Shown piece after piece: positions 4,788-16,444 of a stretch of 64,000 bases of DNA. How positions within the stretch are numbered: the stretch's first letter is position 1; the number at the start of each line of letters is the position of its first letter. The DNA is from Planotetraspora kaengkrachanensis (GTDB lineage Bacteria > Actinomycetota > Actinomycetes > Streptosporangiales > Streptosporangiaceae), in contig NZ_BONV01000037.1 of the NCBI RefSeq assembly GCF_016862895.1, forward strand, positions 1 through 64,000, written 5' to 3'. Position numbers and translations under genes: made by a program. The notes under the pieces were generated by a model. It made no database searches. It was not told where the DNA came from and saw only the letters and a program-made list of their open reading frames with translations.

Positions 4788-6344
4788 GTGCAGACGAATG
4801 CGTCCCGAAGAGTGTTCCTGTCCGCTGCGGTCGCCGGGGCGGGCGGCATGCTCCTGTCCGGGTCCGCCCTCCCGTCGCGGCTGCCGTACGGCGGGGCGCT
4901 CAAGAGGGACCCCTTCACCCTCGGCGTCGCCTCCGGCGACCCCACCGCCGACGGCATCGTGTTGTGGACCCGCCTCGCGCTCGAACCCACGGCGCCCGAC
5001 GGCCTCGGCGGGATGCCCAGCGGCTCGTTCGACGTCGACTGGCAGCTGGCCGCCGACGAACGCTTCTCGAAGATCGTCAAATCCGGTACGGCAACGGCCG
5101 GCGTCGCGCAGGGGCACAGCGTCCATGTCGAGGTGAACGGGCTCGAGCCGGGACGGGAGTACTTCTACCGGTTCCGCGTCGACGGCCACGTGTCCCCAGT
5201 GGGCCGTACCCGAACCGCCCCCACGGGACTGTCGCCGCTGACGTTCGCCATGGCCGCCTGCGCCCAGTGGGAGCACGGCTACTACACGGCCTACCGGCGG
5301 ATCTCCGAGCAGGACCCCGACCTCGTCGTGCACCTCGGGGACTACATCTACGAGTACGAGTCCGGCGGGTACACCGCCCCGACCGGGATCGTCCGCCGCC
5401 ACGCGGGCAGGAAGTGCCAGTCGCTGGGCGACTACCGGCTCAGGCTCGCCCAGTACAAGAGCGACCCCGACCTCCAGGCCGCCCACCAGGTCGCCCCGTG
5501 GCTCGTCGTCTTCGACGACCACGAGGTGGAGAACAACTGGGCCGGCCCGTTCTCGAGCACCGACGCCGCCGCGTTCGCCCAGCGGAAGGCCGCCGCGTTC
5601 CGGGCGTACTACGAGAACATGCCGTTGCGCCGGGGCACCCTGCAGAAGGGCGGCTCGATCCGGATCAACAGGCGGATCTCGTGGGGCACACTGGCGACCT
5701 TCCACCTGCTCGACACCCGCCAGTTCCGCGACGACCAGGCGTGCGACGACGGCGACCGCGCCGGCTGCGACGAGCGGCTCGACGCCGGGCGCACGATCCT
5801 CGGCGCGGACCAGCGCGGCTGGATCCTCGACGGGCTGAACAGGTCGCAGGCCCGGTGGAACCTGATCGGGCAGCAGATCATCATGGCGCAGCGGGACTTC
5901 AAGACCGGCCCAGGCGTGGACGTCAACATGGACACCTGGGACGGCTACGCGGCCGACCGGACCCGGCTCCTCGAGGGGATCAAGGCGTCCGGCGCGGCCA
6001 ACCCCGTCGTGCTGACCGGCGACGCCCACACCCACTACGCCGCCACCCTGAAGCCGGACTTCGCCGACCCCGACTCGCCCCACGTGGCCGTCGAGCTCGT
6101 CACGTCGTCGATCTCGAGCGACGGTGACGGGTACCGCGACGCGGCCGGCATCGCGGAGACCATGCGGGAGAACCCGCACTTCTCCTACATCGACCAGCGC
6201 CGCGGCTACATCGTCTGCTCGGTGTCACCGGAAGAGATGCGGGCCGAGTTCCGCACGCTCGACTACATCACCAGGCGCGGCGCGCCCGCCAAGACCTCGG
6301 CCCGCTTCACGATCCCCTCGGGCCACGCTCAGCTCAGCGCGTAG
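4788..6344 (+). CDS. phoD: Tat-exported alkaline phosphatase D (PhoD family)
   Basis: A 518-residue phosphodiesterase/phosphatase of the PhoD family that releases phosphate from phosphodiesters outside the cell. The N-terminus has a twin-arginine signal (SRRVFLSAAVAGAGG) and an Ala-rich cleavage region near residue 30. A small N-terminal beta domain (about 40-145: LGVASGDPTADGIVLWTRL) precedes the metallophosphatase core. Core motifs visible are HLGDYIYEYE, VVFDDHEVENNW, LIGQQIIMAQ and VVLTGDAHTHYAA, all typical metal-binding blocks. The start is the GTG at 4788 (VQTNASRRVFL). Its 3' end overlaps the convergent gene by 16 bases. PhoP control is common for this family, but I could not find a clear PHO box. 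Confidence 0.92.
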   Translation: MQTNASRRVFLSAAVAGAGGMLLSGSALPSRLPYGGALKRDPFTLGVASGDPTADGIVLWTRLALEPTAPDGLGGMPSGSFDVDWQLAADERFSKIVKSGTATAGVAQGHSVHVEVNGLEPGREYFYRFRVDGHVSPVGRTRTAPTGLSPLTFAMAACAQWEHGYYTAYRRISEQDPDLVVHLGDYIYEYESGGYTAPTGIVRRHAGRKCQSLGDYRLRLAQYKSDPDLQAAHQVAPWLVVFDDHEVENNWAGPFSSTDAAAFAQRKAAAFRAYYENMPLRRGTLQKGGSIRINRRISWGTLATFHLLDTRQFRDDQACDDGDRAGCDERLDAGRTILGADQRGWILDGLNRSQARWNLIGQQIIMAQRDFKTGPGVDVNMDTWDGYAADRTRLLEGIKASGAANPVVLTGDAHTHYAATLKPDFADPDSPHVAVELVTSSISSDGDGYRDAAGIAETMRENPHFSYIDQRRGYIVCSVSPEEMRAEFRTLDYITRRGAPAKTSARFTIPSGHAQLSA

Positions 6345-7915
6345 CCGTACAGGTCGTCAGGATCGCCCGTGCGCACCACGCGGGCGGTCCCGGGGACGGC
6401 TCCGGGGTAGGAGCCCTTCTTCACCTTCGTGCCCACCACGGTCAGCCGGCCGGATCCCGGGGACGCGACGAGCAGCTTCCCGCCCTCGGCCAGGACCGCG
6501 GACCCGAAGGCCCCCGTCCGGTCGCCGGTGAGCAGCAGATTGTGGTTGCGGGTGAGACCTCCGGTGCGGGTCCCCGCGATCACCTGTACGGCGCCCTCTC
6601 CCGGCGCACCCACAATCAGCTCGTCGTCCTTGTCGCCGTTGAGGTCTCCCGTGGCCAGCGACGCGCCGAAACGGTCGTAGTAGCGCGGCGTTCCGGCCAG
6701 GATCGACTGGGTCCACATCTCGCTGCGGGCGGTGGTCAGGCCGCCGGCCGAGCCGTACAGGACGTTGACCGCGCCGTCGCCGTAGTCCATCCCGCGGGTG
6801 AGCTTGGACGACACGTCCTCGCCCGGGACGCCGATCGCGAGGTCGTCGCGCCCGTCGGCGTTGAAGTCGCCGGTGGCGAGGGTGGCGCCGAAGTCGTCCC
6901 ACTTCTCCACCGCGCCGAGTACGCCGCCGGTGTTCTGCGTGTAGGCCTTGGCGTGCCGCTTGCGGAGATCGACGATCGTGACGACTCCCGAGGACGCCTT
7001 CTCCCCGCCGTCGCCCGGCGCCCCGATCGCGATCTCGGCCTTGCCGTCCCGGTTGAAGTCGCCCGTCGCCAGCGCCTCTCCGAACAGGTCGGTCTGTCCC
7101 TGGCCCTGGTGGACCCATTTCGTGGCCTGAGTGATCAGCGTGCCCGTGCCGTACGGCGAACGGCGGCTCATGCCGAAGACGCCGACGCCACCGCCGCCCT
7201 TCATTCCCGGGGCTCCGACGATCAGTTCGTCGTCGCCGTCCCCGTCGAGGTCGCCGGCGGCGAGGGCCGCTCCGAACCTGTCGGTGCCGTGCCTGCGGCC
7301 CAGGTGGGTGACGTCGACCGACCTGACCGTGGTCAGGCCGCCGGGCGACCCGAAGAGGATGTGGACCACGCCGTGCCCGTCGGCGTCGAGGACCCGGGCC
7401 CCGAAGAACTCCTCGGAGACTCCGATGGCCAGATCGCCGCAGCCGTCCCCGTTGAAGTCGCCCCTGGCGACAGCCGATCCGAACGAGTCGTTGACCTCGG
7501 GAGCCCCGCCGATGCCGTCTGCGCCCTGGTGCAGCGTCTTCACCGGCTTGAGACCGTTTCGCGCGCTCCCGTAGAGGGTGACCGACCCCGCGCGCGCCTT
7601 CCCGTTCACCGTCGCGTACGGCGAGGCCACGGCGACGAACGACGGGCAGCCCTTCGCCGCCCCAGGAACCGCCCCAGGAACCGCTCCGGGAACCGCTCCG
7701 GGAACCGCCCCAGGAACCGCCCCAGGAACCGCTCCGGGAACCGCCCCAGGAACCGCTCCGGGAACCGCCGCGGGGACCGCTCCGGGAACCGTGCCGGGCG
7801 CGGTTCCCGGTACGGCGACGGCGGAGGCGGGGGAGGGAGCCAGAAGGGAGGCGAACGCCACCACGGGAGTGGCCACAGCCACCGCGAGCAGGGCGGACGT
7901 GCGTGAAACACTCAT
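6329..7915 (-). CDS. Secreted FG-GAP (integrin-alpha type) beta-propeller protein
   Basis: A 528-residue exported protein. A Sec signal peptide (about residues 1-33, ending SPASA) is followed by a low-complexity AVPG linker (roughly 35-90) and then a propeller. I count six FG-GAP blades. Five carry Ca-binding loops of the DFNGDGCGDLAIG type (DFNGDG, DLDGDGDDE, DFNRDGKAE, DFNADGRDD, DLNGDKDDE); the sixth is degenerate. Such propellers bind ligands or surface partners, but no enzymatic residues are apparent. I chose the ATG at 7915 behind GGAGAC rather than an upstream in-frame GTG at 7972, which would put 19 residues before the signal peptide. The tail overlaps phoD convergently. Confidence 0.85.
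   Translation of the reverse strand: MSVSRTSALLAVAVATPVVAFASLLAPSPASAVAVPGTAPGTVPGAVPAAVPGAVPGAVPGAVPGAVPGAVPGAVPGAVPGAVPGAAKGCPSFVAVASPYATVNGKARAGSVTLYGSARNGLKPVKTLHQGADGIGGAPEVNDSFGSAVARGDFNGDGCGDLAIGVSEEFFGARVLDADGHGVVHILFGSPGGLTTVRSVDVTHLGRRHGTDRFGAALAAGDLDGDGDDELIVGAPGMKGGGGVGVFGMSRRSPYGTGTLITQATKWVHQGQGQTDLFGEALATGDFNRDGKAEIAIGAPGDGGEKASSGVVTIVDLRKRHAKAYTQNTGGVLGAVEKWDDFGATLATGDFNADGRDDLAIGVPGEDVSSKLTRGMDYGDGAVNVLYGSAGGLTTARSEMWTQSILAGTPRYYDRFGASLATGDLNGDKDDELIVGAPGEGAVQVIAGTRTGGLTRNHNLLLTGDRTGAFGSAVLAEGGKLLVASPGSGRLTVVGTKVKKGSYPGAVPGTARVVRTGDPDDLYGYALS
7659..7790 (-). repeat. 12-bp tandem repeat (11 units) encoding AVPG
   Basis: Eleven exact-length 12-bp units of two alternating types (GCCCCAGGAACC and GCTCCGGGAACC on the plus strand; the tenth is a variant) encode an AVPG tetrapeptide array between the signal peptide and the propeller. 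Diverged units continue to about 7813. The array resembles elastin-like or wall-spanning linkers. Confidence 0.9.
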
Positions 7916-8009
7916 GGCCGGATCGTCTCCGGCTATCTGGACATGAGGCCCACCAGCACATGAACCGCCCACGTCGGCTGCCTAAACTCGGCACTGTCAG
8001 CCTCACGGT

Positions 8010-9506
8010 TCAGGCCTCATGGGTGACGTCACCCTCGATGGGCGGCGCGTCGAGCGAGCAGTGGACCTTGCGCTCCGGCTCGGGGGCCTCGACCAGCACG
8101 TTGGTCCTGATCGTGAAGAAGGCGACGAGAGCCGACACGGCGAGCATGGCGGCGCTGACCAGCATCGCCGTGTGGAACCCGTGGGTGAACGCGGCCGGCG
8201 AGTTGTACGCCTCGCCGGTGAGGCCCGCGAGAGGCGGGACGGCGGCGACGGCGAGCAGGCTGCCGGTCCTGGCGAGGGCGTTGTTGACCCCGCTCGCCAC
8301 CCCCGCGTAGCGCTCCTCCGCCGTGGCCAGCACCGTCGCCGTCAGAGGGGCGACGGCGGTGCTCAGGCCCAGGCCGAAGACGACCGCCGCGGGCAGGACG
8401 TCGACGACGTAGGAGGCGCCGGGCCCGATCCTGCTCATGAGGACGAGGCCGGCCGCGCAGCCGAGGATCCCGCCTGTCATGGGGATCCTGGGGCCGATGC
8501 GTTTGGCGAGCTCTCCCGCCCGGGCCGACAGCAGCAGCATCAGGATCGTCACCGGGAGCATCGCCGAGCCGGCGGCGATCGGGGAGAACCCGGCCGACAC
8601 CTGGAGTTGGACGACGAGCAGGAAGAACACGACGCCCATCGCCGCATACATGATCAGCGTCACGACGTTGACCGCGGTGAAGACCCGGGACGAGAAGATC
8701 CCCACGGGCACGAGCGCGTCGGGGGAGCGCCGTATCTCGACGGCGACGAAGGACGCGGCCAGCACCAGGCCCGCGACGAGGGGGAAGACCCCGGCGCCCC
8801 CGAGGATCAGGCCGTACGTGACGCCGGCCAGAGCGAGCGCGGCCAGTGCGGACCCGAGCACGTCGAACCTGCCGTGCACCGAGGTGTCCCTGGTCTCCGG
8901 CACATGCCGTGCGGCCACCGCGAGGACGACGACCGCGAGGGGGAGGTTGAGCAGGAAGACCCAGCGCCAGCCCGCCGTCTCCACCAGCCATCCGCCCAGC
9001 AGAGGCCCGATCGCCGACGCGACGCCGCCGAGCCCCGACCAGGCGCCCACGGCGCGGGGACGGTCGTCGTGGGCGAAGCTCGCCTGGATGATCGCCAGCG
9101 ATCCTGGGGTGAGCAGCGCCCCGCCGATGCCCTGCAGTGCGCGGGCGAGGATGAGGACCTCGATGTTCGGGGCGAGACCGCACAGCGCGGAGGCGGACGC
9201 GAACCACACGACGCCGATCATGAAGATCTTGCGCCTGCCGTAGCGGTCGCCGAGCGAACCCCCGAGCAGGATCAGCCCGGCGAGCGTCAGCGTGTACGCG
9301 TTGATCGTCCACTGCAGTCCCGACATGCCGGTGTGGAGATCGCGGGCGAGGGCGGGCAACGCCACGTTGACCACGGTGCTGTCCAGCATCGCCATGCCGG
9401 ACCCGAGGACCGTCGTGACGAGGACCCAGCGGCCCGGGGCCGAGCTGAGCCTGATCTGGCCTGATTCCATACGGGCCATCATGGTCCGTGGCCTCCGGCG
9501 TGGCAT
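8010..9506 (-). CDS. MFS transporter, DHA2 (EmrB/QacA) family
   Basis: A 498-residue drug:proton antiporter-type membrane protein with about 14 hydrophobic segments. Motif A (GGSLGDRYGRRK, loop 2-3) and motif C-like GLGGVASAIGPLLGGWL are clear, as is MLDSTVVNVALPALARDL in TM1, the signature of the DHA2 branch. The C-terminal 25 residues are hydrophilic. The exact start is open, because MARMESGQIRL a few codons in is also possible. It is monocistronic, 94 bases upstream of the FG-GAP gene and divergent from the STM4015-type gene. The substrate cannot be told from sequence. Confidence 0.9.
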   Translation of the reverse strand: MPRRRPRTMMARMESGQIRLSSAPGRWVLVTTVLGSGMAMLDSTVVNVALPALARDLHTGMSGLQWTINAYTLTLAGLILLGGSLGDRYGRRKIFMIGVVWFASASALCGLAPNIEVLILARALQGIGGALLTPGSLAIIQASFAHDDRPRAVGAWSGLGGVASAIGPLLGGWLVETAGWRWVFLLNLPLAVVVLAVAARHVPETRDTSVHGRFDVLGSALAALALAGVTYGLILGGAGVFPLVAGLVLAASFVAVEIRRSPDALVPVGIFSSRVFTAVNVVTLIMYAAMGVVFFLLVVQLQVSAGFSPIAAGSAMLPVTILMLLLSARAGELAKRIGPRIPMTGGILGCAAGLVLMSRIGPGASYVVDVLPAAVVFGLGLSTAVAPLTATVLATAEERYAGVASGVNNALARTGSLLAVAAVPPLAGLTGEAYNSPAAFTHGFHTAMLVSAAMLAVSALVAFFTIRTNVLVEAPEPERKVHCSLDAPPIEGDVTHEA

Positions 9507-9595
9507 CGGTAGGTCGACTGAACGGACGCCATCGAAGCGTCGCCTGTCTCTGGTAAGACATGATCCGCCAGTCCCCCCAGGCGAGGAGCACGTCA

Positions 9596-10555
9596 GTGAC
9601 CGAGCACGAGAATCCGCGCAGACACGTCTGCGGCTACCGGGATCGCTACGCCGATCTTCCCGTCGCCGAGTTCACCGGCGAAGGCGACCCCGGGAAACTG
9701 CCCGAGGCCGGCTCGGTGGCCTGGCGGCTGTCGGCGGAGCCGTACGACGCGGCGGAGGGAGCCTTCGCGGCGCTGTTCGCCCGCTTCCTGGAGCAGGTGG
9801 ACACCTCGGCGGTCCGGGCGATCGTCGTGGGCGGCTGGGAGAACCCCTACGAGGTGGGCTCGGAGGTGGCGATCGGGCCCCTGGTGGATAACGCAGGGCG
9901 TTTCCCCGGCCTGCGCGCCCTCTTCGTCGCAGCCCTGCAGTCCGAGGAATGCGAGATCTCCTGGATCCAGCAGTCGGACGTGACCCCGCTGCTCAAGGCC
10001 TTCCCGCGGCTGGAGCGGCTGGAGGTCCGGGGAGGAACAGAACTGGAGTTCACCGCCGTCCGGCACGACGCCCTGCGGATCCTCCGCTTCGAGTCCGGCG
10101 GCCTGCCCGCCGACGTCGTCCGCGCGGTCGGGCAGTGCGATCTTCCCGCCCTGGAGGAGCTGGACCTCTGGCTCGGCGTCGAGAACTACGGCGGCAACAC
10201 CGCGGTGGCCGACCTGGACGCGATCATGTCCGGTGAGCGGTTCCCGGCGCTGCGGCACCTGGGCGTGCAGGACAGCGAGATTCAGGACGAGATCGCCGCC
10301 GCCGTCGCCTCGGCCCCGGTCGTCGCCCGGCTCGAGACGCTGAGCCTGTCCATGGGCACCCTCACCGACCTGGGGGCGGAGGCGCTGCTGAGCGGGCAGC
10401 CGCTCACCCATCTGCGTGAGCTCGACCTCCATCATCACTTCCTGACGGACCCGATGATCAAGCGCATCCAGGACGCGCTGCCGGGAGTCCAGGTCGACCT
10501 GTCCGAGCAGGAGGACGAGGAAGACGAGTGGCGCTACGTCGCCGTCGACGAGTGA
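9596..10555 (+). CDS. STM4015 family leucine-rich-repeat protein
   Basis: A 319-residue protein of the uncharacterised STM4015 family. The middle and C-terminal parts show irregular leucine-rich repeats (FPRLERLEVRGG, LPALEELDLWLG, FPALRHLGVQDS, LTHLRELDLHHH), so it is likely a solenoid that binds a protein or peptide. The tail is acidic (EQEDEEDEW). I chose the GTG at 9596 because GAGGAG lies 7-9 bases before it; an upstream ATG at 9560 lacks a site. It is the first gene of the five-gene STM4015-4011 cluster, and its stop overlaps the next start. No function is known to me for the family. Confidence 0.85.
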   Translation: MTEHENPRRHVCGYRDRYADLPVAEFTGEGDPGKLPEAGSVAWRLSAEPYDAAEGAFAALFARFLEQVDTSAVRAIVVGGWENPYEVGSEVAIGPLVDNAGRFPGLRALFVAALQSEECEISWIQQSDVTPLLKAFPRLERLEVRGGTELEFTAVRHDALRILRFESGGLPADVVRAVGQCDLPALEELDLWLGVENYGGNTAVADLDAIMSGERFPALRHLGVQDSEIQDEIAAAVASAPVVARLETLSLSMGTLTDLGAEALLSGQPLTHLRELDLHHHFLTDPMIKRIQDALPGVQVDLSEQEDEEDEWRYVAVDE

Positions 10556-11748
10556 CCACGACGAACACGCGGTTCGCCGTCGTCGGCGTCCCGGGCAACC
10601 GGCGGGTCGCCCTCTTCCGCGCGGCGGCGGCCCGGGCCGGCCTGCCCGACCCGCACGTGATCTCCTGGCGTGACGTGCTGGCCGGCGGCGCGCCGATCCC
10701 GCCGGGCAGTGCCGTACGGGTCGACTCTCCCGGTGAGGACGCCGAGGTGGACGCCCTGCTCCGGGGACTAGGCGATCCGGCACGGGCAGGGGGCGGCGCG
10801 GCCTGGCACGCGGCCTTCCGCGGCGGGCTGCGGAATCTCGCCGATGCCGTCGAGGCCTCACCGGGCACGGTGCTGCTCGGCGATGTCGACGAGATCGCCG
10901 TGATGTTCGACAAGCGGGTGTGTCATGAGCGGCTGCGTGCGGCCGGCGTCCCCGTGCCGCCGGCGCTCCAGGGGCCGGTCGCCTCCTATCGGGAGTTGCG
11001 GGAGCTGATGGCCGGCCACGGCTGGCCCCGCGTGTTCGTCAAGCCCGCCCACGGATCGTCCGCTTCGGGAGTGATCGCCTTCCAGGCGCTGGGCGCCCGC
11101 GTGAGGGCGGTGACGTCGGCCGCGTTGCCGGACGGCCACGCTGAGGCTGACCACGACGCGGGTGGTGGTCGACCGGGCGGGGAGGGCAGCGCCGCGATGT
11201 ACAACTCGCTGCGGGTGCGGACCTACGAGAACGAGGCGGACGTGGCGGCGGTCGTCGACGCGCTCGCGCCCGACGGGTTGCACGTCGAGCGGTGGTTTCC
11301 CAAGGCGTCCATGGACGGCCGGGCCTTCGACCTGCGCGTCGTCGTCGTCGCGGGGGTGCCCACCCACGTCGTCGTCAGAGTCGGCCGCACGCCGATGACG
11401 AACCTGCACCTCGGAGGCGTTCGCGGTGATCTCGGCCGGGTGCGGCGGCGCCTCGGGACGGTGGGATGGCAGGGCGCGCTCGACGTGTGCGCCCGCGCTG
11501 CGGCGTGCTTCCCGGGAAGCCTGGCGATCGGAGTCGACCTGATGATCGGCGCGGACTGGCGATCCACCGCGGTCGCGGAGGTCAACGCCTTCGGCGACCT
11601 GCTCCCCGGCCTGACCGGCCTGCCCGCGGGCCCGGGCGAGGGCCTGGACACCTATGCCGCACAGATCGCGGCGGTGTCGCGGGGATGGCGGCAGGGCATG
11701 CAGTCCCGGGACATCCGAGGCGAGGGAGACACGTCGTGCGTGACATGA
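10552..11748 (+). CDS. STM4014 family ATP-grasp-like protein
   Basis: About 398 residues. The first 130 form a Rossmann-like pre-ATP-grasp domain (FAVVGVPGNRRVALFRAAAA). The rest resembles an ATP-grasp ligase: FDKRVCHERLRAAGVPVPPAL, VFVKPAHGSSASGV (phosphate-binding loop and Lys), then RAFDLRVVVVAGVPTHVVVR and AVAEVNAFGDLLPGL with the metal-binding E-x-N. ATP-grasp enzymes join a carboxylate to an amine or thiol, so an amide- or peptide-bond-forming role is the family inference. Start: GTG 10552 gives a GTGA overlap with the previous stop. GTG 10528, behind GAGGAAGACGAG, is an alternative that adds eight residues. Confidence 0.82.
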   Translation: MTTTNTRFAVVGVPGNRRVALFRAAAARAGLPDPHVISWRDVLAGGAPIPPGSAVRVDSPGEDAEVDALLRGLGDPARAGGGAAWHAAFRGGLRNLADAVEASPGTVLLGDVDEIAVMFDKRVCHERLRAAGVPVPPALQGPVASYRELRELMAGHGWPRVFVKPAHGSSASGVIAFQALGARVRAVTSAALPDGHAEADHDAGGGRPGGEGSAAMYNSLRVRTYENEADVAAVVDALAPDGLHVERWFPKASMDGRAFDLRVVVVAGVPTHVVVRVGRTPMTNLHLGGVRGDLGRVRRRLGTVGWQGALDVCARAAACFPGSLAIGVDLMIGADWRSTAVAEVNAFGDLLPGLTGLPAGPGEGLDTYAAQIAAVSRGWRQGMQSRDIRGEGDTSCVT

Positions 11749-12599
11749 ACACCGTCGTGGGCAGCCACGACATCCTGCTGGTGACGCTGGACACGTTGCG
11801 TTACGACGTGGCCGCCCGGCTCGTGGCGGCCGGAAGGCTGCCGAACCTGGCCCGCGTGTTGCCGCAGGGGAGATGGGAGCGCCGGCACAGCCCCGGGAGT
11901 TTCACCTACGCGGCCCACGCGGCGATGTTCGCGGGCTTCCTCCCCACCCCCGCCGAACCCGGTGTGCACGCGCGGCCGTTCGCGGCCAGGTTCCCGGGAA
12001 GCGAGACGACCGGCGACGGCACCTGGGTGTTCGACGCGCCGGACCTGCCCACCGGTCTCGCGAAGGCGGGGTACCACACCGTCTGCGTGGGAGGCGTCGG
12101 CTTCTTCAACAAGCAGAGCCCGCTCGGATCCGCCCTGCCGGGCCTGTTCGCGGAGAGCCACTGGGCGCCCGAGTTCGGCGTCACCTCTCGGCATTCCCTG
12201 GAACGGCAGATCGACCGGGCCGAACTGGCGCTGCGCGACCGGGATGAGCCGGTCTTCCTGTTCGTCAACGTCTCGGCCCTCCACCAGCCCAACTGGTTCC
12301 ACCTGGCGGACGCCGCGCAGGAGGACGGCGACACGCTGGAGAGCCACGCGGCCGCCCTGGAGTACGTCGACAGGCGCATCGACCGCCTGTTCGCCCTCAT
12401 GACCAGGAACAGGCCGTGCTTCACGATCATCTGCTCCGACCACGGCACGGCGTACGGGGAGAGCGGCCACACCGGTCACCGGATCGGCCACGAGGTGGTC
12501 TGGACGGTGCCGTACGCCGAGTTCGTGCTGGAGCGGACGCCGGCCAGGCCACGCCCACAGTGGGGGCGTGCGCGCGCATGGGATCGGATCAGGGGATGA
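11736..12599 (+). CDS. STM4013 family alkaline-phosphatase-superfamily (sulfatase-like) hydrolase
   Basis: A 287-residue member of the alkaline phosphatase/sulfatase fold. Visible features are the first metal site in LLVTLDTLRYD, a possible Ser/Thr nucleophile in SPGSFTYAAHAAM (no Cys-x-Pro-Ser-Arg, so not a formylglycine sulfatase) and the second metal site SDHGTAYGESGHTGHRIGH. No signal peptide, so it acts in the cytoplasm, unlike secreted sulfatases. The GTG at 11736 follows GGGAGAC and overlaps the previous gene by 13 bases; an ATG at 11745 would give an ATGA overlap. Its own stop overlaps the next start (ATGA). The substrate is unknown. Confidence 0.83.
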   Translation: MRDMNTVVGSHDILLVTLDTLRYDVAARLVAAGRLPNLARVLPQGRWERRHSPGSFTYAAHAAMFAGFLPTPAEPGVHARPFAARFPGSETTGDGTWVFDAPDLPTGLAKAGYHTVCVGGVGFFNKQSPLGSALPGLFAESHWAPEFGVTSRHSLERQIDRAELALRDRDEPVFLFVNVSALHQPNWFHLADAAQEDGDTLESHAAALEYVDRRIDRLFALMTRNRPCFTIICSDHGTAYGESGHTGHRIGHEVVWTVPYAEFVLERTPARPRPQWGRARAWDRIRG

Positions 12600-13906
12600 C
12601 AGAGACCGACACCGCAATCAGCCCGTACAACGGCTATATCTATGCCTATCCGCATAAGACGGCTTATCGGCCGTTAGAGCCACGTCCTGCTCTGCGTGAC
12701 GTCTGGTCGGGTGAACGGACCGACGCGCTCTTCCTGTACCTGCACATCCCCTTCTGTGAGATGCGCTGCGGCTTCTGCAACCTGTTCACGCGGACGGGCG
12801 CCCCGGAGGAACTGGTCGGCGCCTACCTCGACGCACTGGAGCGGCAGGCCGTCGCCCTGCGGGAGGCCCTGCCGGATCCGCGCTTCGCGACGGCCGCGGT
12901 CGGCGGCGGCACGCCGACCTACCTGAGCCCGGCGGAGCTGAACCGGCTCTTCGACCTCGCGGAGGACGTTCTCGGAGCCGACCTTCGCGCGATCCCGCTG
13001 TCCGTGGAGACGTCGCCCGCGACGGCGACGGCGGACCGCCTCGCCGTGCTCGCCGGCCGGCGCGCGACCCGCGTCTCCATCGGCGTGCAGAGCTTCGTCG
13101 ACGCCGAGGCCCGGGCCGCCGTGCGGCCGCAGCGGCGGTCGGAGGTCGAGGCGGCACTCGGCCGGATCAGGGACGCCGCCTTCGAGGTCCTCAACATCGA
13201 CCTGATCTACGGCATCGACGGCCAGACGCCGCGGTCCTGGGTGTACTCCCTGGACTCCGCGCTCGCATGGCGTCCGGAGGAGTTGTACCTCTATCCGCTG
13301 TACGTGCGGCCGCTCACCGGCCTGGGCCGCAGGGACCGCGAGTGGGACGACCAGCGGCTCGACCTCTACCGCGTGGGCCGCGACCATCTGCTCGAGGCGG
13401 GCTACGAGCAGGTGTCGATGCGGATGTTCCGCCTGCCGGGCTCGGGCGGGGCGACCGAGTACTGCTGCCAGACCGACGGGATGGTCGGTCTGGGTTGCGG
13501 CGCCCGGTCGTACACGGAGACCCTGCACTACTCCTACGAGTACGCCGTGGCGGCGAGGCACGTGCGGGCGATCATCGATGAGTTCGTCCGCCTGCCTGCC
13601 GGCGAGTTCGCGGTGGCGAACGTGGGCTTCCGCCTCGACGACGAGGACAGGAGGCGCCGTCATCTGATCCAGTCCCTGCTGCAGGCTTGCGGAATGGCGC
13701 GCGCGGGCTACCGCGAACGCTTCGGCGCCGACGTCATGGACGACTTCGCCGCGGAACTGTCCCGGTACGCCGCGCTGGGGTGGCTGGAGAGCGACCGCGA
13801 CCTGGTACGGCTGACCGCGGAGGGACTGGCCTACTCCGACGCCATCGGCCCGGCCCTGTTCTCCAGCCGGGTGGAGGCACTGATGCAGGCGTACGAGGAG
13901 CGTTGA
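12596..13906 (+). CDS. STM4012 family radical SAM protein (HemN-like)
   Basis: A 436-residue radical SAM enzyme related to coproporphyrinogen dehydrogenases. The [4Fe-4S] motif CEMRCGFC gives Cys54, Cys58 and Cys61. VGGGTPTYLSPAEL, VSIGVQSF and LNIDLIYGIDGQ follow the HemN pattern, and the last 100 residues match the HemN C-terminal fold. It is unlikely to be the haem enzyme itself, because it belongs to the STM4011-4015 set and a second radical SAM gene follows. The ATG overlaps the preceding stop (ATGA). Its last seven codons and stop have been duplicated downstream in a 45-bp tandem repeat, which separates it from STM4011. Confidence 0.88.
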   Translation: MTETDTAISPYNGYIYAYPHKTAYRPLEPRPALRDVWSGERTDALFLYLHIPFCEMRCGFCNLFTRTGAPEELVGAYLDALERQAVALREALPDPRFATAAVGGGTPTYLSPAELNRLFDLAEDVLGADLRAIPLSVETSPATATADRLAVLAGRRATRVSIGVQSFVDAEARAAVRPQRRSEVEAALGRIRDAAFEVLNIDLIYGIDGQTPRSWVYSLDSALAWRPEELYLYPLYVRPLTGLGRRDREWDDQRLDLYRVGRDHLLEAGYEQVSMRMFRLPGSGGATEYCCQTDGMVGLGCGARSYTETLHYSYEYAVAARHVRAIIDEFVRLPAGEFAVANVGFRLDDEDRRRRHLIQSLLQACGMARAGYRERFGADVMDDFAAELSRYAALGWLESDRDLVRLTAEGLAYSDAIGPALFSSRVEALMQAYEER

Positions 13907-13996
13907 GCGGGCGTGCGAGGAGCACTGATGCAGGCGTGCAAGGAGCGTTGAGCGGGCGTGCGAGGAGCACTGATGCGGGCGTACGAGGAGCGTTGA
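13879..13996 (+). repeat. 45-bp tandem repeat (2.6 copies) duplicating the 3' end, stop and ribosome binding site of the STM4012 gene
   Basis: Copies start at 13879, 13924 and 13969. Each holds the final codons M-Q-A-Y-E-E-R plus TGA and a GAGGAG binding site. Copies two and three form complete short frames: 13928-13951 (MQACKER) and 13973-13996 (MRAYEER), each 6 bases behind GAGGAG. The last TGA overlaps the STM4011 ATG (TGATG), which suggests that the two genes originally overlapped directly. Confidence 0.9.
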
Positions 13997-14886
13997 TGAC
14001 AGCGGACGGGCACCTGTCGATCCTCTACCGCGGTCCGCTGGCGAGTTGCGACTACGACTGCGCCTACTGCCCGTTCGCCAAGCGGCGGGACGACCCCGAC
14101 CGGCTGCGCGCCGACCGGGCCGCGCTGAAGCGATTCACCACGTGGGTCGCGGAGCAGGACCACCCGATCTCGGTGTTGTTCACGCCGTGGGGTGAGGGGC
14201 TCGTGCGCTCGTGGTACCGCGAGGCGATGATCGGGCTCAGCCGCCTCGGTCACGTCCGCACGGTGGCGATCCAGACGAACCTGAGCTGCCGCACCGGCTG
14301 GCTCGCCGAGGCCGATCTGGGCAGCCTCGCGTTGTGGTGTACGTACCACCCGAGTCAGGTCGCTTACGACCGCTTTCTCGCCAAATGCCGCGATCTGGAC
14401 CGGTTAGGCGTACGGCACAGCGTCGGCATCGTGGGCCATCCGGACCACCTCGCCCCTGCCCGCCGGCTTCGGGCGGACCTCCCCGAGCCGACCTACCTGT
14501 GGGTGAACGCCGAGGAGGGGCGCCGCTACACCGACGCGGAAGCGGCCGAGTGGACCGCGATCGATCCGCTCTTCGGGTACAGCCGCCGCCCGCATCTGAG
14601 CGCCGGCCTGCCGTGCCGTACGGGTGAGACGGTGATCTCGGTGAACGGCGACGGCATGGTCAGGCGGTGTCATTTCATCCCCGCCGAACTCGGCAATCTC
14701 TACGACGGGTCCTTCCGCGAGGCCCTGCGACCCCGGCCGTGCCCGGCGGCGGCCTGCGACTGCCACATCGGGTACGTGCACCTGGAGCCGCTGGGCCTCT
14801 ACGACGTCTTCGCCGGGGGAATCCTCGAGCGTGTGCCGGCCCGGCCCGCCGATCCTCCCGGTCAGGTCTCCTTCTCGGGGCGGTAG
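13996..14886 (+). CDS. STM4011 family radical SAM protein
   Basis: A 296-residue radical SAM enzyme with the cluster motif CDYDCAYC (Cys18, Cys22, Cys25). A C-terminal Cys-rich region (CRTGE, RRCHF, CPAAACDCH) probably binds an auxiliary iron-sulfur cluster, as in SPASM/Twitch enzymes that modify peptides or proteins. The ATG lies 5-6 bases after GAGGAG and overlaps the stop of the preceding mini-frame. It is the fifth and last gene of the cluster. Its 3' end overlaps the convergent DUF6745 gene by 25 bases. The substrate is unknown; pairing with an ATP-grasp and a leucine-rich repeat protein hints at peptide or protein modification. Confidence 0.88.
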   Translation: MTADGHLSILYRGPLASCDYDCAYCPFAKRRDDPDRLRADRAALKRFTTWVAEQDHPISVLFTPWGEGLVRSWYREAMIGLSRLGHVRTVAIQTNLSCRTGWLAEADLGSLALWCTYHPSQVAYDRFLAKCRDLDRLGVRHSVGIVGHPDHLAPARRLRADLPEPTYLWVNAEEGRRYTDAEAAEWTAIDPLFGYSRRPHLSAGLPCRTGETVISVNGDGMVRRCHFIPAELGNLYDGSFREALRPRPCPAAACDCHIGYVHLEPLGLYDVFAGGILERVPARPADPPGQVSFSGR

Positions 14887-16118
14887 TCGGCCTCGGGCAC
14901 CCCGAAGGTCCAGGCGACTCCCTCCCGTGCTCGCGAGGTCGACGGCGGCACCCGGAGGAAGTAGGTGCGGCGGCTGCCGTCGGGCTCCGGCGTGGAGTTG
15001 ACGACCTGGACCATCACGAGATCCTCGTCGCCGGGCAGGGCGAGGCGCCACAACGTGCCCGTCTCGTCCCGGTGCATGGGAGACGCGTTGGACTCTTTGA
15101 GGTAACGCTCGAAGCCGTAGTGCTCCAGCATCACCCGGCGCAGCTCGGCGTTCTCCTCGGCCCGGATCCGCTCGGCGTCGACCGAGGCCATCGTGGCGCC
15201 GAACCCGTCGGGCACCGGCATGCCGTGCCAGGCGTGGAGCGCGAACCCGTCGGGGAAGGACATCGCCGGCCCGTCGGCCCGATGGAGCCGCCCGGCCTCG
15301 TCGCGGTGCGCCTCCATCGGGCGCTCGCAGATGAGTGCGATCCGCTCGAACGGCCACCACCAGCCTGCCGTTCGCGCGACCGCGGCCAGACCTCCGAGGG
15401 CCGCGCGCTGTGCCTCGGCGACGCCCGCCCGTACCCCGGAGGCCGGGTCGAAGACGCACAACCAGGCGGCGTCGTGCTGACCGAGGACCGCGTCGAGCGT
15501 CGCCCCACGCAGAAGCTCGCCCGCGGTCTCGCCTCCCATCTCCGCCATCCGGCGCCGTATGTCGGAGACCGTCCTGTTCACCGGCTGCCAGAGCCGCCCG
15601 CCGCTGCCCGCCCACGCGTCGGCCCAGCCTGCCGGGCCGAGCGAGGCGTGGACGGCGGCCCTCGCCCGCTCCCACGGAAGTGTGCGGATAGCCGTGCGCA
15701 CCGACGCGCCTGCTGCGCCCGTCGCCCCGTCGGCCGGCGAGTTCACCGCCGGGCCGTCATCAGGCCTCGGCGCCCGGCCGGCCACCGGGTCCACAGCCGG
15801 GCCCGTCGGTGAGTCCGGTGCCTCAAGCTGGAGCAGCACCTCCTCGGCGAGCCCGCCGAGACCCGCCCGCTCGAGCGTCTCCGCGCTCGCGGGGTCAGCG
15901 AGCAGCAGGGCCGCGACGGCGCCGCGTAAGGGGGAGCCGAGCCAGACGATCCGCTCCGGCATGGTCAGGCCGGCGTCCCAGTAGGCCTGCCGCACCCCCT
16001 CTTCGGCCGCGGCGCGGTCGGCGGGGCCCGTGGCGAGCGCCGTCTCCTGCCAGGAACCGGGATCCGAGCCCAGCGGCAGGGTGCCGGGCCCGGGCGGAGA
16101 GCTCAGTGTGGCGGTCAT
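14862..16118 (-). CDS. DUF6745 domain protein
   Basis: A 418-residue protein of unknown function. The C-terminal two thirds match my memory of the DUF6745 family: LHRADGPAMSFPDGFALHAW, then HGMPVPDG, IRAEENAELRRVMLEHYG and RYLKESNASPMHRDETGTLW. An Ala/Pro-rich insertion occupies residues about 105-135. No catalytic signature, signal peptide or membrane segment. Its ATG overlaps the stop of the small upstream gene (TGATG), so the two are translationally coupled. In other genomes DUF6745 genes often carry a similar small partner, as far as I recall. It converges on the STM4011 gene, and a link to that cluster is possible but not shown. Confidence 0.78.
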   Translation of the reverse strand: MTATLSSPPGPGTLPLGSDPGSWQETALATGPADRAAAEEGVRQAYWDAGLTMPERIVWLGSPLRGAVAALLLADPASAETLERAGLGGLAEEVLLQLEAPDSPTGPAVDPVAGRAPRPDDGPAVNSPADGATGAAGASVRTAIRTLPWERARAAVHASLGPAGWADAWAGSGGRLWQPVNRTVSDIRRRMAEMGGETAGELLRGATLDAVLGQHDAAWLCVFDPASGVRAGVAEAQRAALGGLAAVARTAGWWWPFERIALICERPMEAHRDEAGRLHRADGPAMSFPDGFALHAWHGMPVPDGFGATMASVDAERIRAEENAELRRVMLEHYGFERYLKESNASPMHRDETGTLWRLALPGDEDLVMVQVVNSTPEPDGSRRTYFLRVPPSTSRAREGVAWTFGVPEADYRPEKET

Positions 16119-16444
16119 CAGTCGGCCACCACCCGGAAGGCGCCGGGAACGTACTCACGCTGGCGGACCACCCGATACCACCCCTTCGGCAGCGAGATCG
16201 CGGCGTGCTCCTCGTGGACCAGGCGCCCGCCGGACGGCAGGTGCAGGAAGCCCGGGCGGCTCGGATCCCGATCGAGCAGCAGCGTCCCCGGGCCGGCGAT
16301 CGCATGGGCGTGACCGGTGGCCTCTCCCAGGGCCAGCACGAGGCGGCCCCGCGCGTCACGCGGCTCCGGCGGGCCCGTCCGAGCGGCCGCGGGCACACTC
16401 TCTTCCGGCACCGGCACGATCAGGATGTCTCCCTGGCGGTACAT
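16118..16444 (-). CDS. Small conserved protein, partner of DUF6745
   Basis: A 108-residue protein starting MYRQGDILIVPVPEE at an ATG just behind GAGGAGTGCG. It has a compact beta-rich look: LALGEATGHAHAIAGPGTLL, GFLHLPSGGRLVHEEHAAI, LPKGWYRVVRQREYVPGAF. Several His residues (GHAHAI, HEEHA) could bind metal, but this is speculative. Ends one base into the DUF6745 start codon, so both proteins are probably made together. An upstream extension of the frame toward 16825 is not supported by a binding site or conservation. Function unknown. Confidence 0.72.
   Translation of the reverse strand: MYRQGDILIVPVPEESVPAAARTGPPEPRDARGRLVLALGEATGHAHAIAGPGTLLLDRDPSRPGFLHLPSGGRLVHEEHAAISLPKGWYRVVRQREYVPGAFRVVAD

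Follow-up and report, generated by a model that had tools for sequence, protein, structure and literature searches.

What is the common task of the five protein families STM4015, STM4014, STM4013, STM4012 and STM4011, whose genes lie together on a 64,000-nucleotide stretch of the Planotetraspora kaengkrachanensis genome (contig NZ_BONV01000037.1, positions 1 to 64,000; this whole stretch is termed the window herein)? The genes encode a leucine-rich repeat (LRR) protein, an ATP-grasp ligase, an alkaline-phosphatase-superfamily hydrolase and two radical S-adenosylmethionine (SAM) enzymes, respectively (Table 1). In the literature searched, which was mostly non-subscription, no function was found for STM4011 to STM4015, for DUF6745, a family that often accompanies them, or for 2ra8, the solved structure of an STM4015 relative; the only mentions of STM4015 and STM4013 there, one apiece, are entries in a table of positive selection and a table of sigma-54 sites, with no function attached in the available parts of these sources. 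We consider it fairly probable that the cluster is a protein-modification pathway in which the LRR protein is itself the substrate and the chemistry takes place on its C-terminal Glu. This likely site of chemistry gives five unexplained families a testable handle, and, if the proposal is true, C-terminal-Glu chemistry of the kind seen with LysW and S6 would be extended to a large scaffold protein that is tailored by radical SAM enzymes.

The C-terminal tail of STM4015

We read the C-termini of 155 STM4015 open reading frames (ORFs), namely all in the window and the searched loci that score more than 50 bits; they hold 154 distinct C-termini, two E. coli records having one in common, and residue counts here and below omit ORFs that fall below the set scores or are open at contig ends. 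The set of related loci consists of the best 80 of at least 433 confirmed STM4011 relatives, all actinobacterial by title, and Actinomadura makes up much of it. The terminal residue is Glu in 153 of the 155 ORFs and never Asp; the two other ORFs are fragments of 104 and 189 amino acids, apparently from broken frames (locus L099 at 6100 and locus L052 at 4703). The Glu closes a tail with the pattern [YF]xAVxE-COOH, in which position −6 is Tyr or Phe (148/155), position −4 Ala (129/155) and position −3 Val (140/155), and position −2 is Ser in 74, Ala in 40 and Gly in 27 of the ORFs. All tails share the terminal Glu, with a small residue before it at −2 and mostly a hydrophobic one at −3. Directly before the tail lies a linker that is acidic and otherwise dissimilar in sequence: averaged over columns, the entropy rises from 1.17 bits in the LRR core, where many strand residues are conserved, to 2.21 bits in the linker (residues 297-311) and falls to 1.11 bits in the tail, and positions −9 to −12 are variable across the 155 ORFs. 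In graspetide cores acidic residues are paired with Thr, Ser or Lys; the tail holds one conserved acidic residue, and pairing may also involve the acidic linker.

This ending sets STM4015 apart from its neighbors. Among the called genes of the window and the 80 loci, 136 of 136 STM4015 genes end in Glu versus 23 of 877 other genes, and the whole tail pattern is present in 135 of 136 versus 1 of 877; being gene-caller output, this comparison may omit some copies of the 155-ORF set. In the 8.77-Mb actinobacterial genome of the host, the pattern has one forward match, in STM4015, and none in reverse, with 0/0 in the controls. Viral contigs gave 18 matches to it, none of them an STM4015 relative. 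Of the 151 terminal codons, 87 read GAG and 63 GAA, with TGA, TAG and TAA all used as the stop; since both Glu codons and all three stops occur, the constraint acts on the amino acid and not on the GTGA overlap with the next gene. Conserved ends as such are not unique to STM4015: no conserved C-terminus was found for STM4014, STM4013 or STM4011, and STM4012 has a conserved end region (Tyr at −4 in 81 and Met at −7 in 82 of 88 sequences), DUF6745 ends in Thr in 74 of 76 cases and an associated 108-amino-acid protein in Asp in 73 of 74. What is unusual is a conserved island behind a hypervariable linker.

The terminal Glu is also found in Deinococcus (five proteins), Methylobacterium, Paenibacillus, Salmonella, E. 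coli, Bacteroides finegoldii and Calothrix. The relative of solved structure, 2ra8 (Bacteroides fragilis Q64V53, 269 bits), matches to the profile end, with residue 354 of its 362-residue chain, a Glu, aligned with the last profile column; the last eight residues of the chain are presumably an affinity tag, as in the usual construct. Only STM4015 and LRR models match the window protein in a profile scan, and the host genome holds a single STM4015 match at E 0.001. Two relatives depart from this architecture: a Bacteroides STM4015 (locus L144, 9758-10831) carries an N-terminal WGR domain (PF05406, 65 bits), and a Calothrix plasmid (locus L145, 2014-3288) encodes a 424-amino-acid relative with a different N-terminus and the tail RYCSVAE, for which profiles found no enzyme genes in the 13 kb examined.

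Of the components, STM4015 alone was seen in tandem copies. The 80 loci carry one copy in 36 cases, two in 32, three in 3, four in 2, five in 2 and six in 1, where two fragments of one broken copy may count as two (as at L099), and four cut loci (L065, L091, L104 and L119) have no STM4015 above threshold. No cluster enzyme gene was seen intact in tandem; locus L088 has two partial STM4014 matches. Within a locus, paralogs (89 pairs) are alike in the LRR core (identity, 0.72) and the tail (0.70) and unlike in the linker (0.13; residues −20 to −9). Four copies on other contigs or at a distance of about 100 kb from the cluster all keep the tail (RYVAAGE, YYTAAAE and, twice, RFPSATE), an S. cadmiisoli copy about 25 kb from the cluster ends in RRFVAVSE, and STM4015 retains its terminal Glu at loci L046 and L077, from which STM4014 has departed. 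Because of its near-invariant Glu tail, its position as the sole tandem component and its copies in trans, STM4015 behaves as a substrate or carrier. A preliminary description of this DNA had cast the LRR protein as a recognition partner; these same properties suggest that this is incomplete and that STM4015 is probably a substrate rather than a mere recognition partner.

Co-occurrence and order of the five genes

The five genes had been described as one system, and a sample of 148 genomes from the class of the host (host genome included) bears this out: each family is present in 15 of them, and the 15 are identical for all five. If genomes were independent of each other, a single identical set would arise by chance with a probability of 7.6e-21, but their independence does not hold. 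STM4015 was not found in any of the 133 sampled genomes without STM4014. All five genes are separate ORFs in 73 of the 80 related loci, and the order 15-14-13-12-11 on one strand is always kept for the genes present, the sole exception being one extra STM4015 on the opposite strand at L076. The four cut loci named above are incomplete because contig ends truncate them. At two further loci no STM4014 lies between STM4015 and STM4013 and the gene is found elsewhere in the genome (L046, Thermocatellispora, 7733-7870, 432 bits; L077, Sinosporangium, 7723-7797, 401 bits), and in Streptosporangium subroseum (L086) STM4014 and STM4012 form one 829-amino-acid ORF (7278-9764), with STM4013 elsewhere in the genome (402 bits). 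As all three genomes keep the moved gene, the genes are retained together even when they are not neighbors.

Clustering of 1,467 called genes of at least 60 amino acids from the window and the 80 loci yielded seven families present in 66 to 81 loci; the next clusters occur in 30, 24, 21, 21 and 20 loci and may be common synteny of Actinomadura. A cluster of DHA2-type major facilitator superfamily transporters (14 loci) was judged not special. Besides the 108-amino-acid protein, no conserved separate precursor ORF was found among these called genes, shorter ORFs having not been clustered.

The families were found in Actinomycetota, Deinococcus, Salmonella, E. coli, Paenibacillus, Methylobacterium and Bacteroides, and STM4015 also in Calothrix. 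Matching DNA is present in 154 of 5,426 complete E. coli genomes, in 94 of these over at least 80% of the query. The cluster lies between sugar genes or between ompL and typA in two E. coli records, and between ompL and typA in a Salmonella plasmid record. On a Bacteroides finegoldii plasmid (L144, 11845-12210), a deletion has joined the first part of STM4013 with the last part of STM4012, and STM4015, STM4014 and STM4011 are still open. At L135 (7848-8795), an ORF that is TnpB-like by eye lies on the opposite strand between STM4013 and STM4012 and removes neither gene. On plasmids of Rhizobium tropici (L041, 9950-12267) and Cupriavidus taiwanensis (L042, 9890-12225), a class I methyltransferase gene comes after a divergent STM4012-like radical SAM gene; the other four cluster genes are not annotated in the stretches examined, and the R. 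tropici gene adjoins pseudoazurin and cbb3 oxidase genes.

Predicted enzymes and the proposed chemistry

The idea of a carrier was formed from the STM4015 tail before the structure of STM4014 was predicted. The AlphaFold2 (AF2) model of STM4014 (pLDDT, 90.8; pTM, 0.90), built on an alignment of 60 sequences that are actinobacterial only, has as its top five Foldseek rows LysX (3vpd), ArgX-LysW (3vpb, two chains) and LysX/ArgX with LysW-gamma-AAA (5k2m, two chains), followed by the graspetide ligase PsnB and then by RimK-RpsF (RimK with S6). VIA-align gave Z scores of 22.8 for ArgX, 22.7 for LysX and 22.5 for RimK. With a profile of 88 STM4014 sequences, the NLHxGG, GVD and ExN motifs are in register with those of E. 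coli RimK; taken with the RimK Z score, this alignment points to an ATP-grasp fold with the RimK core motifs in STM4014. D329 (88/88), E343 (87/88) and N345 (88/88) are conserved and, as follows from the superfamily, are the ATP-grasp metal residues. STM4014 lies outside the RimK sequence family, as the RimK-related model TIGR02291 scores 20.2 bits against a cut-off of 314.2, and no LysX or LysW model is among the NCBIfam matches of the cluster proteins.

In STM4011, Cys18, Cys22 and Cys25 (CX3CX2C) and Cys207, Cys225, Cys249, Cys254 and Cys256 are invariant among 31 sequences, which is the pattern of a SPASM/Twitch enzyme with C-terminal Cys for auxiliary clusters; its C-terminal part matches the auxiliary-cluster part of SkfB (6efn) weakly (E 0.0036), and the Pfam SPASM score is 16.8 bits (gathering cut-off, 21.5). 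STM4012 matches HemN (1olt, 203 bits) and the radical SAM methyltransferase NocN (138 bits) but stays below the NCBIfam cut-offs for HemN (125.1 versus 324.95), HemW (125.2 versus 205.4) and HutW (118.5 versus 400). The sole PADLOC hit was a weak one, between STM4012 and PDC-M51A (21.7 bits), and a role in anti-phage defense was rejected. STM4013 had been described as sulfatase-like without the formylglycine motif, and indeed the formylglycine Cys or Ser of sulfatases is absent, with Thr54 at the nucleophile position; T54, H180, D209, D232, H233 and H245 are invariant in 33 sequences. It matches PF00884 (43.8 bits) and PF01663 (29.9 bits), both above cut-off, and the nucleotide pyrophosphatase/phosphodiesterase 2gsn (35 bits), and, judged from its superfamily, is likely a phosphohydrolase or phosphotransferase. 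One sampled genome has a second STM4013 (338 bits) distant from the cluster (G161:C52:2609-3379).

From these parts we propose the following pathway. STM4014 would activate the C-terminal Glu of the STM4015 tail and join an amine there, and STM4011 and STM4012 would then alter the tail, the attached group or both. STM4013, plus a haloacid dehalogenase (HAD) phosphatase in some lineages, might remove or move phosphate during assembly. The LRR domain would act as a large "leader" recognized by the enzymes, and one enzyme set could serve several LRR paralogs, some of them in trans. We infer that the tail is modified, that this happens on Glu319 and that the ligase precedes the radical SAM enzymes. 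The earlier suggestion of ATP-grasp and radical SAM chemistry typical of peptide or protein modification gains support from the RimK/LysX-like model of STM4014, the weak SkfB match of STM4011 and the HemN and NocN matches of STM4012. We favor an attached group that stays on the LRR protein, because the LRR gene is multiplied and none of the recurring genes was recognized as a peptidase; release of a product, as from an amino-group carrier protein (AmCP), is the less favored alternative. It is possible, although we hold this only tentatively, that in a widespread class of LRR proteins the ligase, the two radical SAM enzymes and the phosphohydrolase build a prosthetic group on the C-terminal Glu, permanently displayed at the end of the flexible acidic arm as a new kind of protein-borne cofactor or chemical warhead; the LRR domain would be recognized first by these enzymes and later by a partner in the cell.

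The nearest known kinds are the AmCP and RimK systems, and the cluster belongs to neither, differing on the substrate protein or on the sequence models. According to the available part of PMC9303977, AmCPs are ligated on the gamma-carboxylate of the C-terminal Glu; in these systems (LysW with LysX/ArgX; Vzb22), as here, an attachment protein ending in Glu, with an acidic C-terminal region, would serve a ligase of the RimK/LysX type, and LysX and ArgX are, on the predicted structure, the nearest neighbors of STM4014. Unlike there, the protein is an LRR protein of about 300 residues, often multicopy, rather than of the small LysW type, it is accompanied by two radical SAM enzymes and a phosphohydrolase, and no carboxypeptidase was recognized among the recurring genes. 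RimK, as described in the available part of PMC10092738, adds Glu residues to the C-terminus of S6. It shares with STM4014 the NLHxGG, GVD and ExN motifs and, as proposed here, action of an ATP-grasp enzyme on a protein C-terminus; in contrast to S6, the proposed substrate is an LRR protein, and radical SAM partners are present. Graspetide systems (PsnB; grasp-with-spasm) likewise combine an ATP-grasp enzyme and a SPASM radical SAM enzyme on a gene-encoded substrate, but here no separate short precursor was found and no recurring peptidase was recognized. The pearlins (TglA carrier peptide), as far as the available part of PMC9303977 covers them, resemble the cluster in chemistry on the C-terminus of a gene-encoded carrier and in a radical SAM enzyme in the 3-thiahomoleucine pathway. 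They differ in that loading there is ATP- and tRNA-dependent by peptide aminoacyl-tRNA ligases (PEARLs), in place of an ATP-grasp ligase and an LRR carrier. No paper combining an LRR protein, radical SAM and ATP-grasp enzymes and C-terminal modification was found in the literature searched; a graspetide survey (PMC8939145) makes no mention of leucine, LRR or STM40, and a CDC123 paper (PMC4431377) makes none of leucine-rich or LRR.

Several results speak against modification of the STM4015 tail by STM4014. In the structural comparison, the rule of the tool puts RimK and an N5-carboxyaminoimidazole ribonucleotide (N5-CAIR) synthase (PurK type; Z 21.9) level with ArgX and LysX, and GshB (Z 21.3) and Ddl (Z 20.9) are close behind, so the RimK/LysX-like ranking of the model is suggestive and not decisive. 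The match between the STM4014 profile and RimK is weak (17.5 bits in a one-target search), and the best matches of the profile are D-Ala ligase (E 0.012) and cyanophycin synthase (E 0.014), with LysX and S6-modification chains only at E 0.05-0.1 (LysX, 0.054). A search with the single sequence led to biotin carboxylase (E 0.001), and Pfam ATPgrasp_ST scores 26.5 bits, below its cut-off of 31.4. In Salmonella, E. coli, Methylobacterium and Prescottella the aromatic residue of the tail is at −8, with Asn or Ser at −6, and thus the Tyr is not strictly placed. That no peptidase was recognized by eye among the recurring gene clusters counts against release of a product.

A conserved C-terminus can also be a docking motif, and motifs at the extreme C-terminus commonly serve binding. 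The tail might then only bind a partner, for example STM4014 or STM4011, and stay unmodified, the enzymes acting on a small molecule and the LRR protein being a scaffold or regulator; conservation of many LRR strand residues, as for a fixed partner, would agree with this. A Glu that is kept in 153 of 155 ORFs and never exchanged for Asp, together with a ligase structurally nearest to C-terminal-Glu enzymes, nevertheless exceeds what docking needs, and it is the LRR gene, and no intact enzyme gene, that stands in tandem. We therefore regard docking or assembly as unlikely. A lower probability still attaches to a ribosomally synthesized and post-translationally modified peptide (RiPP) with a giant leader, in which the LRR part would be the leader and the last seven or so residues the core, to be modified, cut off and exported in the manner of graspetides or grasp-with-spasm products. 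PsnB among the top Foldseek rows, the SPASM-like STM4011 and the several tandem STM4015 copies per locus would suit such a peptide. Its core, however, barely varies between paralogs (identity, 0.70), unlike the cores of peptide weapons; beyond the seven families, recurring gene clusters are confined to at most 30 loci, with no peptidase recognized by eye, and no grasp-with-spasm model is among the NCBIfam matches.

That the C-terminus is a degron or stability tag setting the turnover of the LRR protein, with the enzymes belonging to another pathway, is very improbable: in the window lon begins some 1.8 kb after STM4011 ends, but no Lon family was recognized among clusters present in at least 6 loci, strict five-way co-occurrence ties the LRR protein to the enzymes, and the ligase is left unexplained. 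We give next to no credence to the terminal GAG being kept only since GAG-TGA holds the GTG start of STM4014, for although the junction in the window is exactly GTGA, GAA (63) stands beside GAG (87) in the 151 codons with three different stops, the Paenibacillus, Salmonella and E. coli records have no overlap, and copies without an adjacent STM4014, including those at L046 and L077, keep the Glu.

Associated genes and features of the window

Modification of the LRR protein on its terminal Glu would be the work of the five core families, and further genes often accompany them. The preliminary description had counted five genes and suggested looking for a conserved small ORF or a sixth gene nearby; the count is incomplete, as DUF6745 and the 108-amino-acid protein, or the HAD phosphatase, are frequent companions. 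DUF6745 is present in 70 of the 80 related loci and together with the 108-amino-acid protein in 69 of 80, a figure that overstates the general rate because these are the best, actinobacterial loci. In the class sample, 7 of the 15 genomes with the cluster have a DUF6745 match above 300 bits, which by its coordinates always adjoins the cluster; none of the 133 others reaches this score, and the matches of 84-107 bits in 4 of them apparently belong to a different subfamily. Three Deinococcus, one Methylobacterium and two Streptomyces plasmid records have both genes beside the cluster; the stretches from Paenibacillus, Salmonella and E. coli yielded neither. The small protein and DUF6745 are paired without the cluster in the stretches examined of Skermanella (L126, 9998-11746) and Deinococcus ficus (L127, 7989-9325), and in Microcystis phage LMM01 (L125, 4968-6499) the 108-amino-acid protein is paired with a DUF6745-like protein near DNA polymerase and uracil-DNA glycosylase genes. 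Because the pair occurs without the cluster, we take it to be an associated module and not part of the core. The 108-amino-acid protein matches 9 phage records, all from Microcystis phages or a cyanophage, and its AF2 model (pLDDT, 85) has no PDB fold match (best E 0.79).

In Salmonella and E. coli, STM4011 overlaps at its end with a gene for a HAD phosphatase (PF08282). The STM4011 of Bacteroides finegoldii carries a fused PF08282 domain, only 20% identical to the E. coli protein, and Deinococcus taeanensis has a PF08282 gene next after the gene for the small protein.

Table 1. Genes and sequence features of the STM4015-STM4011 locus, in window coordinates
Feature	Position	Strand	Score or evidence
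STM4015 family LRR protein, 319 amino acids, proposed substrate or carrier	9596-10555	+	NF038076, 388 bits (cut-off, 275)
STM4015 acidic hypervariable linker, residues 297-312	10484-10531	+	Column entropy, paralog identity
STM4015 C-terminal tail RYVAVDE; terminal Glu319 is GAG at 10550-10552	10532-10552	+	Conservation
STM4014 ATP-grasp ligase, RimK/LysX-like predicted structure	10552-11748	+	NF038074, 418 bits (cut-off, 175)
STM4013 alkaline-phosphatase-superfamily hydrolase	11745-12599	+	NF038075, 410 bits (cut-off, 250)
STM4012 HemN-like radical SAM, CX3CX2C at Cys54, Cys58 and Cys61	12596-13906	+	NF006067, 639 bits (cut-off, 380)
45-bp tandem repeat, 2.7 copies, between STM4012 and STM4011	13877-13998	+	Resembles STM4012 3' end
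STM4011 radical SAM, SPASM/Twitch-like C-terminus	13996-14886	+	NF038073, 394 bits (cut-off, 200)
DUF6745 protein (PF20530), convergent with STM4011	14862-16118	−	337.6 bits
108-amino-acid protein, VLAxGExTGHxH...HEEH, ends in VAD	16118-16444	−	phrog_27831, 55 bits

The five window ORFs pass all five NCBIfam cut-offs, which confirms their assignment to the STM4011-STM4015 families, and they lie on the plus strand with overlapping starts and stops, as had been described. STM4015 and STM4014 are joined by GTGA (10552-10555), STM4014 and STM4013 by ATGA (11745-11748, the STM4013 start being ATG), and STM4013 and STM4012 by ATGA (12596-12599); the 13-bp overlap reported before for STM4014 and STM4013 arises when GTG at 11736 is taken as an alternative STM4013 start. 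STM4012 and STM4011 are separated in the window by 89 bp made of the 45-bp tandem repeat. In the near relative Planotetraspora phitsanulokensis (L043), whose STM4011 is 96% identical, they are joined by a direct TGATG with no tandem repeat, and for this reason the junction that had been called an ancestral TGATG is supported. On the other strand, the stop of the 108-amino-acid gene overlaps the DUF6745 start by 1 base. Upstream of the cluster, positions 6329-7972 of the window encode a protein in which repeats that are FG-GAP-like by eye come after a long tract of AVPG repeats.

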